The translations under genes were made by a program, and so were the position numbers. The notes under the pieces are model-generated. The model made no database searches. It was not told where the DNA came from and saw nothing but the letters and a program-made list of their open reading frames with translations. This document shows positions 48,703 to 62,980 of a stretch of DNA of 64,000 nt, in pieces. The stretch comes from Streptomyces sp. I6. Its GTDB lineage: Bacteria > Actinomycetota > Actinomycetes > Streptomycetales > Streptomycetaceae. Positions within the stretch are counted from its first letter, which is position 1. Every line of letters begins with the position of its first letter. The stretch lies in the NCBI GenBank assembly GCA_003725745.1, contig RHDP01000001.1, positions 3,914,501-3,978,500 on the forward strand, written 5' to 3'.

Positions 48703-49764
48703 TCAGCCGACGACGGTCCAGGTGTCGTTGCCCGCGAGCAGGGCGCCCAGGTCGCCCTTGCCGTTCTGCTCGATCGCCGCGTCGAGCTGATCGGCCATCA
48801 GGGTGTCGTACACGGGGCGCTCGACGCTGCGGAACACCCCGATGGGCGTCTGGTGCAGCGTGTCCGGGTCGGCCAGCCGGGACAGCGCGAACGCGGTCGT
48901 CGGACTGGCGCTGTGGGCGTCGTGGACGAGGATCCGGGACTCGTTCTCCGCGGAGACCGTGACGACCGTGAGATCGCCGGTCGCCGGGTCCCGTACCACG
49001 CCCTTCGAGCCGCCGCTGCCGAATCGGATCGGCTGCCCGTGCTCCAGCCGGATCACCGCCTCCTCGGCCTGCTCCTTGTCCTTGAGCGCCTCGAAGGCGC
49101 CGTCGTTGAAGATGTTGCAGTTCTGGTAGATCTCCACCAGAGCCGTGCCCGGGTGGTCCGCCGCGGCGCGCAGCACCTCGGTGAGGTGCCTCCGGTCGGA
49201 GTCGATCGTGCGGGCGACGAACGACGCCTCGGCGCCCAGCGCCAGCGACACCGGGTTGAAGGGCGCGTCCAGTGAGCCCATCGGCGTCGACTTGGTGATC
49301 TTGCCGAGTTCCGAGGTGGGGGAGTACTGCCCCTTCGTCAGACCGTAGATCCGGTTGTTGAACAGCAGGATCTTGAGGTTGACGTTGCGCCGCAGGGCGT
49401 GGATGAGGTGGTTGCCGCCGATGGACAGCGCGTCGCCGTCGCCCGTGACGACCCACACGCTCAGGTCACGCCGGGAGGAGGCGAGCCCGGTCGCGATCGC
49501 GGGGGCGCGGCCGTGGATCGAGTGCATCCCGTAGGTGTTCATGTAGTACGGGAAGCGGGAGGAGCAGCCGATGCCGGAGACGAAGACGATGTTCTCCCTC
49601 GCCAGGCCGAGCTCGGGCATGAAACCCTGCACGGCGGCGAGGATCGCGTAGTCACCGCAGCCCGGGCACCAGCGGACCTCCTGGTCCGACTTGAAGTCCT
49701 TCATGGACTGCTTGGCCTCGGCCTTGGGAACCAGGGACAGCAGTACGGACGCTGTCTCAGTCAT
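48703..49764 (-). CDS. korB: 2-oxoacid:ferredoxin oxidoreductase beta subunit (KorB)
   Basis: A 353-residue thiamine-diphosphate subunit. Motifs: WCPGCGDYAILAAVQ, GIGCSSRFPYYMNTYGMHSI-HGRAPAIATGL, and the TPP/Mg motif VTGDGDALSIGGNHLIHALR, NNRIYGLTKGQYSPTSE. With KorA it oxidises 2-oxoglutarate (or another 2-oxoacid) to acyl-CoA and CO2 while reducing ferredoxin. Its ATG overlaps the korA stop by 8 bp. Confidence 0.94.
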   Translation of the reverse strand: MTETASVLLSLVPKAEAKQSMKDFKSDQEVRWCPGCGDYAILAAVQGFMPELGLARENIVFVSGIGCSSRFPYYMNTYGMHSIHGRAPAIATGLASSRRDLSVWVVTGDGDALSIGGNHLIHALRRNVNLKILLFNNRIYGLTKGQYSPTSELGKITKSTPMGSLDAPFNPVSLALGAEASFVARTIDSDRRHLTEVLRAAADHPGTALVEIYQNCNIFNDGAFEALKDKEQAEEAVIRLEHGQPIRFGSGGSKGVVRDPATGDLTVVTVSAENESRILVHDAHSASPTTAFALSRLADPDTLHQTPIGVFRSVERPVYDTLMADQLDAAIEQNGKGDLGALLAGNDTWTVVG

Positions 49765-61421: not shown

Positions 61422-62980
61422 CCCTGGCCGTTGCACCGCACGCGCTCGCCGCGCCCGGCGCCCAGTCTGGCGCCCAGTCCGTCGTCCAGTCCGTCGACTG
61501 GCTCGCGATCGCCCCGCCCACCATCACCGCGGTGGCCGCCCTGCTCATCCTGGTCGCCGACCTCTTCGTCGCCGAGCGGAAGAAGGCGCTGCTGGGCTAC
61601 GCGGCCGTCGCCTCCCTCGCCGTCGCGCTGGTCTCGCTGGTGCCGCTGCGCACGGCCGACCGTGCCACGTTCTGCCTGACCACCGCCCCCGACGTGTGCA
61701 GCTACACGGTGGACCGGTTCACGCTCGTGATCCAGTTCCTGGTGCTGGGCGGGGCGCTCGTCACCGCGCTGCTCTCCGTGACCGAGACCCGGAGGCGGCT
61801 GCCCGCCGGGGAGTACTGGTTCCTGCTGCTGTCCTCGGCGGCCGGAGCGGCCCTGCTGCCCGCCGCACGGGACCTGGCCACCCTCGTCGTCGCCCTCGAG
61901 GTCGCCTCGCTGCCCGCGTTCGCTCTGGTCGGCCTGCGCCGAGGCGACCGGATGTCCAGCGAGGCGGCGCTGAAGTTCTTCCTGTCCTCGGTCACGGCCA
62001 CCGCCGTGATGCTGCTGGGCGTCAGCTTCGTCTACGCAACGACGGGAAGCCTGCACCTGACCCGGATCGCGGCCCGCATGGACGACGTCCCCGGCCGGCT
62101 GGACACGCTGGCCGCGGCCGGTGTGGCGCTCACCCTGGTCGGCTTCGCCTTCAAGACGGCGGCCGTGCCGTTCCACTTCTGGGTGCCCGACACCTATGTG
62201 GGCGCGCCGCTGCCCGTCGCCGCCTACCTCTCCGTCATCGGCAAGGCCGTCGGCTTCTCCGGGCTGATCCTGGTGACGGTCATCGCCTTCCCCGCCCACG
62301 CCGGCGTGTGGGGCCCTGCCGTAGCCGTGCTGGCGGCCCTGACCATGACCGCGGGCAACGTCGCCGCAGTACGCCAGTCCGCCACCCGCGCCCACAGCGC
62401 CGTACGGCTGCTGGCCTGGTCCTCCGTGGGGCAGGCGGGCTACATCCTGGTCCCGGTCGCCGCCGCCGCCCGGTCGGGGGACGTACCGATCGGCGCCACC
62501 GTCGCGTACGCCCTGATGTACGCCGTCGTGAACCTCGGGGCCTTCGCCGTGGTCGCCCTGGTCGCCCGTACGAAGCCGCTGAACCGGATCGCGGACTACC
62601 GCGGCCTGTACGCGACGCGCCCCGCGGCCGCCCTGGCGCTGGGCTTCTTCCTGCTCTGCCTGGCCGGTCTGCCGCCCGGTGTCATCGGTCTCTTCGCCAA
62701 GGTCGCGGTGTTCTCGGTCGCGGTCGACGCCGGCCTCGGCTGGCTCGCCGTCGTCATGGCCGTCAACGTCGTGATCGCGCTCTACTACTACCTGCAGTGG
62801 ACCGCACAGCTCTTCCGGGCGCCGGAGGAGGCGCCCGCGCCCGCACCGGAGGGCCCGCCGGCCCGGCGCCGCGGCCCCGCACTGGTCACCACCGCCATCG
62901 CCCTCACCGCCGCCGCGGGCGTCGTGCTGTCCGGCTGGCCGCAGCTGGTGCTGCGCTTCGCGGCCGTCGACCTCTTCTGA
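61418..62980 (+). CDS. NADH-quinone oxidoreductase subunit N, second copy (NuoN2)
   Basis: A 520-residue antiporter-like subunit: VVALEVASLPAFALVGLRRG, KTAAVPFHFWVPDTYVGAPL and AHSAVRLLAWSSVGQAGYIL. Ends the operon. The ATG overlaps the nuoM2 stop, with TGGAGGAAAGG upstream. The short Gln/Ser-rich N-terminus (AQSGAQSVVQSVD) is an imperfect repeat. No terminator was recognised in the following 170 bp. Confidence 0.93.
   Translation: MTLAVAPHALAAPGAQSGAQSVVQSVDWLAIAPPTITAVAALLILVADLFVAERKKALLGYAAVASLAVALVSLVPLRTADRATFCLTTAPDVCSYTVDRFTLVIQFLVLGGALVTALLSVTETRRRLPAGEYWFLLLSSAAGAALLPAARDLATLVVALEVASLPAFALVGLRRGDRMSSEAALKFFLSSVTATAVMLLGVSFVYATTGSLHLTRIAARMDDVPGRLDTLAAAGVALTLVGFAFKTAAVPFHFWVPDTYVGAPLPVAAYLSVIGKAVGFSGLILVTVIAFPAHAGVWGPAVAVLAALTMTAGNVAAVRQSATRAHSAVRLLAWSSVGQAGYILVPVAAAARSGDVPIGATVAYALMYAVVNLGAFAVVALVARTKPLNRIADYRGLYATRPAAALALGFFLLCLAGLPPGVIGLFAKVAVFSVAVDAGLGWLAVVMAVNVVIALYYYLQWTAQLFRAPEEAPAPAPEGPPARRRGPALVTTAIALTAAAGVVLSGWPQLVLRFAAVDLF

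Follow-up and report, generated by a model that had tools for sequence, protein, structure and literature searches.

A second complex I-like enzyme of Streptomyces sp. I6 with a remotely encoded NuoD subunit and a predicted tryptophan pocket

Among the closest described systems, the nuoABCDHIJKLMN complex of Desulfitobacterium hafniense consists of 11 subunits without NuoE, NuoF and NuoG, and ferredoxin has been proposed as its electron donor (PMC11238625). Flavodoxin or ferredoxin supplies electrons to the Campylobacter-type complex I, which has no NADH input (Weerakoon and Olson 2008, cited in PMC11238625). A second nuo cluster, SCO4599-4608, and the KorA protein SCO4594 are on record for Streptomyces coelicolor (PMC9239103, PMC9739823, PMC8981147, PMC3897704); the function of this cluster is called unclear in PMC9239103, according to which genes for C, D, E, F, G and L are lacking, while PMC3897704 does list NuoL2. 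Here we analyse the second nuo cluster, nuo2, in a stretch of 64,000 nucleotides from Streptomyces sp. I6 (referred to as the window; G000:C1:3914501-3978500, with G000 as the label of the source genome), which also contains a first operon, nuo1. SCO4599-4608 and SCO4594 are the presumed orthologues of nuo2 and KorA in the window.

Nuo2 is almost certainly an 11-subunit complex I-like enzyme without NuoEFG that includes a second NuoD, NuoD2, and from its sequence it is best described as a variant of the known EFG-less, ferredoxin-type complex I with a tryptophan pocket, an account that we consider on balance probable as a whole. Its composition, the co-inheritance of NuoB2 and NuoD2, a matched switch of the arginine next to cluster N2 and the conserved cluster ligands are firm at the level of the sequences. 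Nuo2 shares with the D. hafniense complex the same 11 subunits, the lack of EFG and ferredoxin as the proposed donor; it differs in being encoded beside a 14-subunit enzyme, in having D moved off and linked to MidA, in the Trp that replaces the quinone-site Tyr and in the location of the N2 arginine in D (PMC11238625). As in S. coelicolor, the second nuo cluster is found near a ketoglutarate:ferredoxin oxidoreductase, but unlike in the gene list published for that species the operon in the window contains C2 and L2, with D2 located elsewhere. Nuo2 also resembles the Campylobacter-type enzyme, which is linked to a 2-oxoglutarate oxidoreductase, in that a 2-oxoacid oxidoreductase is encoded upstream of a complex I that is independent of NADH; neither a displaced D nor a link to MidA is known there.

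Gene content of nuo2 and the location of nuoD2

The gene order nuoA2-B2-C2-H2-I2-J2-K2-L2-M2-N2, noted earlier from the letters of the window (the sequence-only reading), is real; it extends over ~52.69-62.98 kb without D, E, F or G, and korB and korA are located on the minus strand, divergent from the operon (window 48.7-63.0 kb). The loss of D that was noted at the same time is wrong for the genome as a whole: a genome-wide profile search with PF00346 recovered, besides NuoD1, a second NuoD at C1:3800241-3800989, outside the window and 166 kb from nuoB2. This nuoD2 is split by a frameshift, with frames that span C1:3800241-3801379 and two halves that both match NuoD models; together with the ten genes of the operon it makes up the eleven-subunit set, four members of which are frame-broken in the present assembly. 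The genes referred to below are the following (window positions):

48703..49764, minus strand: korB, beta subunit of 2-oxoacid:ferredoxin oxidoreductase (PF02775, E 3.5e-29; TIGR02177 PorB_KorB, 245.8 bits, slightly below the cut-off of 261.9)
49757..51703, minus strand: korA, fused gamma/alpha subunit, start codon approximate (PF01855, PF01558, PF17147; TIGR03710 OAFO_sf, 650.5 bits, above cut-off)
52688..53065, plus strand: nuoA2, start approximate, open reading frame from 52619 (PF00507, E 9.2e-32)
53056..53760, plus strand: nuoB2, bears cluster N2, with Thr98 (codon 53347) at the position of Thermus Nqo6 Arg83 (PF01058; TIGR01957, 219.2 bits, above cut-off)
53757..55329, plus strand: nuoC2, frame broken near 54.0 kb in the present assembly, with 9-base repeats at the break (53972-54007)
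55326..56297, plus strand: nuoH2 (PF00146, E 3e-99)
56294..56928, plus strand: nuoI2, with an N-terminal helix and two 4Fe-4S motifs, between which the frame is broken in the present assembly
56925..57494, plus strand: nuoJ2 (position, translation and match to relatives)
57494..57853, plus strand: nuoK2 (position, translation and match to relatives)
57850..59840, plus strand: nuoL2, frame broken near 59.23 kb in the present assembly (PF00361; TIGR01974, 421.2 bits, above cut-off)
59844..61421, plus strand: nuoM2 (TIGR01972, 538.9 bits, above cut-off)
61418..62980, plus strand: nuoN2 (translation and match to relatives)
24873..26069, plus strand: nuoD1 of the first operon, for contrast, with Thr at the HRG position and Tyr at the quinone site (PF00346)

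The cofactor sites that had been noted are present, as NuoB2 has the N2 cysteines (CC, GxC and PGCP) and NuoI2 both 4Fe-4S motifs (two CxxCxxCxxxCP), the latter in two frames. The translations of NuoL2, NuoM2 and NuoN2 show the Glu and Lys motifs that matter in antiporter-like subunits, and KorA and KorB have the domain architecture of a 2-oxoglutarate:ferredoxin oxidoreductase, apart from the slightly low TIGR02177 score of KorB. The frameshifts in C2, I2 and L2 had been missed in the sequence-only reading; nuoD2 and the nuo1 genes for NuoF and NuoG are likewise frameshifted in the present assembly. Since the frame is open in most of 26 same-genus loci inspected with motif patterns (C2 in 23, I2 in 26 and L2 in 22, the remainder perhaps being real breaks or pattern misses) and the marker completeness of G000 is 87%, the breaks are likely to be assembly indels or errors. 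In one relative (L105), nuoL2 is a single frame of ~669 amino acids.

Across a sample of 296 genomes of the class, the NuoB matches split into one group of ~50% identity (nuo1) and another of 65-100% identity (nuo2), among the matches listed, to which the following counts also refer. Using identity cut-offs of 65% for NuoB2 and 70% for NuoD2, set after the two clear groups were seen, and scoring fragments as present (G021, G076, G097; an 85% NuoB fragment in G051 is counted in), we found NuoB2 in 74 genomes, NuoD2 in 76 and both in 72, including all 28 same-genus genomes with G000 among them. Two genomes have NuoB2 only (G014, G108) and four NuoD2 only (G005, G033, G076, G097); completeness is 72-80% for four of them, and pieces of NuoH2 and NuoB2 stand at contig ends in the other two, G005 and G033. 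Fisher values for the co-occurrence take no account of how closely the genomes are related. A deeper group, comprising six genomes with NuoB at 51-61% identity and 20 with NuoD at 49-68%, stands outside these counts. In each of the 20 pairs located on one contig, 74 to 921 kb separate the genes for NuoB2 and NuoD2.

A methyltransferase gene with a PF02636 domain (59.9 bits versus a cut-off of 23.3) is located ~0.8 kb from nuoD2. This family is that of MidA and NDUFAF7; the protein itself has no NCBIfam match and no relative of solved structure by sequence at E 0.01. PF02636 is present in 105 of the 296 class genomes; of the 96 genomes for which a NuoD2 of at least 49% identity is listed, 90 have it. 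The two genes are at most 12 kb apart in all 83 same-contig pairs, with six drafts having them on separate contigs. Six genomes have NuoD2 without a PF02636 match, two of which (G128, G190) show a MidA-like match. The corresponding control for NuoD1 is weak, with only 2.2-2.3 kb covered per locus. The mitochondrial counterpart of NuoD is NDUFS2, whose Arg85 is symmetrically dimethylated by NDUFAF7 (PMC3829151). The present case is similar in combining a PF02636 enzyme with an HRG-motif arginine next to N2 (PMC3829151, PMC8042128); all 80 NuoD2 loci read have this arginine, the candidate target. Unlike the mitochondrial pair, the two genes are here chromosomally linked and serve a second, NADH-independent enzyme, the methylation being putative. 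In two further genomes (G047, G247) a PF02636 gene also adjoins a more distant second NuoD (45-52% identity), so the pairing may extend beyond the set analysed.

A second NADH module elsewhere in G000 was considered and rejected: only one NuoE and one NuoG were found, both in nuo1, and the extra NuoF-like match (L007, G000:C1:1965602-1966089) is remote and by eye consists of a NuoF-like domain and a C-terminal ferredoxin domain in an apparently broken frame. In the window, the nuo1 and nuo2 versions of B, C and H share only 35-51% identity. One genome with a full nuo2, G128 (~60 contigs, marker completeness 100%), has one NuoB and one NuoD among the matches listed, and searches there for NuoE and NuoG found neither; Nuo2 can therefore apparently stand alone. 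The sole complex I detected in this case (G128, L134, L188) is a full Nuo2 without a NuoE, NuoG or KorB match.

The N2 arginine, the presumed quinone site and KorAB

In most complexes the arginine beside N2 is located in the HRG motif of NuoD (R121 in Yarrowia, R85 in human), and the residues are subject to an inter-subunit switch, Yarrowia having Thr in NuoB and Thermus showing the reverse, with Thr in NuoD and Arg83 in NuoB (PMC8042128). In the window, nuo1 is Thermus-like (NuoB1 Arg, NuoD1 Thr) and nuo2 is mitochondria-like (NuoB2 Thr, NuoD2 Arg). Position 98 of NuoB is Thr in all 179 NuoB2 loci (80 named, 60 class, 20 further class and 19 other-class loci), and the equivalent residue of NuoB1 is Arg in the window and in 17 other loci. 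At the position of NDUFS2 Arg85, all 60 class and all 20 other-class NuoD2 loci have Arg, and all 21 contrast loci of NuoD1 (20 fetched plus the window's own) have Thr. NuoB2 paired with NuoD1 would have no arginine beside N2, which makes NuoD1 a poor partner and is the strongest sequence argument against its being borrowed by nuo2, as had been suggested earlier. On this ground and on that of the almost perfect co-inheritance of the second NuoD with NuoB2, we reject the borrowing.

Residue 78 of NuoD2 aligns to Tyr87 of Thermus Nqo4 (2fug chain 4), and in work on Thermus His38 and Tyr87 are taken as the deprotonating partners of quinone (PMC7434922, PMC8042128). NuoD2 keeps the His and has Trp for the Tyr. 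The equivalent of His38 is present in all NuoD2 and NuoD1 loci read, and Trp is found at the Tyr87 position in 79 of 80 NuoD2 loci (60/60 class, 19/20 other-class), the sole exception being a long-branched outlier with Tyr (L308), while Tyr is found in 21 of 21 NuoD1 loci. The triplet at the positions of His38, Arg85 and Tyr87 thus reads HRW in 60/60 class and 19/20 other-class NuoD2 loci and HTY in every NuoD1 locus of the contrast set. Judged from these residues, the NuoD2 pocket is specialised.

In 70 class loci, 4.5 kb or more of upstream sequence was available; divergent genes for KorA and KorB were found beside nuo2 in 55 of these, namely in 41 of 51 full loci, 13 of 18 loci without the membrane arm (referred to as arm-less) and one of one undetermined locus, which bears out the earlier notion of an EFG-less complex I-like enzyme positionally tied to korAB. 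Among the ten full exceptions, two show KorA alone (L089, L124) and one stops at the contig end (L096), and the five arm-less exceptions (G013, G036, G054, G109, G120) have KorB elsewhere in the genome; KorA is upstream in 69 of the 80 named loci. The accompanying idea that KorAB feeds the enzyme was supported only by half, since the adjacency speaks for it and the occurrence of KorAB without nuo2, and of nuo2 without KorAB, against it. KorAB is likely to be a source of ferredoxin, not the only one. As an obligatory partner of nuo2 it is rejected, given the nuo2 genomes without KorB among the matches listed and the other-class loci without a match to either protein. Mycobacterium tuberculosis is not known to have nuo2; its KorAB is active (PMC2773412).

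Origin of nuoD2 and relatives without the membrane arm

In 19 of 20 other-class loci, D is inside the nuo2 operon in the order A-B-C-D-H-I, which continues to N2 where the contig or the fetched piece allows, and in the twentieth (L294) D is alone near a MidA-like gene. A MidA homologue directly follows NuoN2 in three of these loci (L303, L304, L305), and no MidA match was found in the remaining 16. In the NuoD tree, which was midpoint-rooted with long branches flagged and with 5 of 21 Streptomyces rows kept, the class NuoD2 proteins form one clade (100/100) and NuoD1 another (100/99), and a single branch (100/99) separates NuoD1 and L308 from all Trp-type rows; G190 is labelled full in this tree by default although no second NuoB was found there. 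Most simply, the D gene left an ancestral ABCDHIJKLMN operon once. In the present class it is linked to MidA, which may have moved along or joined later.

In all, 21 class genomes have NuoB2, NuoC2 and NuoD2 without NuoH2, which was searched genome-wide; the 22 loci without NuoH2 include one (L140, G253) that simply stops at the contig end. Twenty of the 21 have a single full NuoH of the nuo1 type (38-44% identity; G011 also has a weak fragment, E 4e-4), and one, a 78%-complete draft, has no NuoH at all. NuoA2 and NuoJ2-N2 were not seen in the fetched regions of the arm-less loci, no genome-wide search having been made for them. NuoI2 follows NuoC2 in 20 of the genomes, and in G016 (L137) the contig ends before NuoI. 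The arm-less cluster is often close behind nuo1. Twelve sampled rows form an arm-less clade in the NuoD tree, and G161 (one contig, 100% complete) is nested separately among the full forms; with a full operon as the ancestral form, the arm-less state would have arisen two or more times.

The full NuoI2 has a GLxKGLxVT-like N-terminal helix, which presumably sits on the membrane arm, in 56 of 56 loci read by pattern, and such a helix was found in none of 20 arm-less NuoI proteins (the motif scan read 71 of 80 loci, and the other arm-less ones were read by eye). Arm-less NuoB keeps all four N2 cysteines (21/21). Between its tandem cysteines and its GT motif is a segment that faces NuoH and the quinone path. 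This segment is slightly altered in G161 and G016 and partly retained in G109, G120, G046 and G020; in the remaining genomes it is rewritten or shortened. Arm-less NuoD keeps the His, Arg and Trp in all 13 sampled. The missing helix of NuoI and the altered NuoH-facing segment of NuoB suggest that the arm-less forms would be a soluble BCDI enzyme with its pocket still in use. Docking of this enzyme on the nuo1 membrane arm was considered because the cluster often adjoins nuo1, and is less likely because of these same two changes.

At L138, L139, L147 and L269-L285, nuoB-C-I clusters have no genes for membrane subunits close by, most of them come with korAB, and their NuoI lacks the N-terminal helix. 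In one case (G030, L123) NuoH2 is down to short remnants beside A2, B2, C2 and I2 matches, an apparent step toward arm loss. By eye, the conserved neighbours of the arm-less loci resembled ordinary syntenic genes.

Proposed electron path and competing explanations

In the account that we favour, KorAB would supply part of the reduced ferredoxin from 2-oxoglutarate, and electrons would pass from ferredoxin through the two clusters of NuoI2 to N2 in NuoB2 and on to the pocket at the NuoB2/NuoD2/NuoH2 junction, where menaquinone would be reduced while NuoL2, NuoM2 and NuoN2 pump protons. The PF02636 enzyme probably dimethylates Arg55 of NuoD2, the equivalent of NDUFS2 Arg85, by analogy to NDUFAF7 in mitochondria; that it acts on NuoD2 seems quite likely to us. 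Ferredoxin is a reasonably likely donor, which the nearby KorAB supports, and quinone is to a similar degree the expected acceptor of the full form.

Several observations weigh against this account. With Trp at the Tyr87 position, quinone chemistry is not safely transferable from known complex I, and the arm-less relatives keep the same pocket residues, which is hard to reconcile with a membrane quinone as the sole acceptor. KorB occurs in 236 of the 296 class genomes (E 0.001, a few weak; among the matches listed), far above the nuo2 count; two genomes with a full nuo2, G128 (100% complete) and G246 (99%), have no KorB match among the matches listed, and neither KorA nor KorB was matched in the 20 other-class loci. 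PF02636 is carried without a listed NuoD2 by 15 class genomes, nine of them in family f34, which has at least two NuoD matches, and in other-class loci MidA is mostly not near the operon (found in 4/20). Finally, NuoC2, I2, L2 and D2 are all broken in the present assembly.

The Trp in 79 of 80 NuoD2 loci, the 21 genomes with NuoB2, C2 and D2 but no NuoH2, the absence of the NuoI helix in the 20 arm-less proteins read, the altered NuoH-facing segment of NuoB with its N2 cysteines all kept, and the retention of His, Arg and Trp by NuoD in all 13 arm-less forms sampled would also fit an acceptor other than a membrane quinone. The Trp pocket would then hand electrons to a soluble molecule or carrier, the full Nuo2 being a proton-pumping ferredoxin:X oxidoreductase and the BCDI forms its soluble versions. 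We consider this unlikely, though worth keeping in view, since the full forms retain NuoH2, the pump subunits and the His38 equivalent, and arm-less and full forms could differ in acceptor. It is tentatively conceivable that Nuo2 represents a distinct Trp-pocket class of complex I whose pocket is independent of membrane quinone, and in which the arm was shed at least twice to leave a soluble NuoB-C-D-I enzyme, usually beside KorAB and tended by MidA, that passes ferredoxin-level electrons to a soluble acceptor.

Operation in reverse, with Nuo2 making reduced ferredoxin from menaquinol and proton motive force in an aerobe, would agree with the NADH-linked nuo1 that the window and almost all arm-less relatives contain as well, but the adjoining KorAB already yields reduced ferredoxin and the sequence gives no pointer to this direction, which we hold to be improbable. 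A hybrid, with subunits swapped between Nuo2 and the canonical complex and NuoD or NuoEFG provided by the latter, as suggested for S. coelicolor (PMC9239103), draws on the closeness of nuo1 and nuo2 and on the lack of a second NuoE or NuoG in G000; given the cognate NuoD2 with its matched arginine switch, the Nuo2 of G128 without nuo1 markers and the low identity of B, C and H between the sets, it is very unlikely. That nuo2 is a decaying duplicate, as the frame breaks in C2, I2, L2 and D2 might indicate, is hardly credible, for nuo1 genes are broken too, most same-genus loci have open frames (22-26 of 26) and the residues are strictly conserved across the phylum sample.

On the favoured account, a probable composition is now given for the second nuo cluster of Streptomyces, the function of which is called unclear in PMC9239103, and NuoD2 and MidA are named, testable partners in a tractable genus. 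The question of NDUFS2 Arg85 methylation becomes approachable in a bacterium that also bears a Thr paralogue, NuoD1, in the same cell. How much of complex I suffices to draw electrons from N2 is a question to which the Trp in place of Tyr and the forms reduced to BCDI are relevant. No description of NuoD2, its MidA link, the Trp variant or the arm-less derivatives was found in the literature searched, which lacked most subscription papers.

Some minor features of the window were also observed. The tail of NuoC2 (54350-55329) is long, of low complexity and rich in Pro, Ala and Glu, with 30-base repeats at 54976-55132; in another locus (L288) NuoC2 and NuoH2 are contiguous without this tail. By eye, futalosine-type menaquinone synthesis genes precede nuo1 (1764-21075), and a polyprenyl synthase gene is located between nuo1 and korAB (42586-43656).

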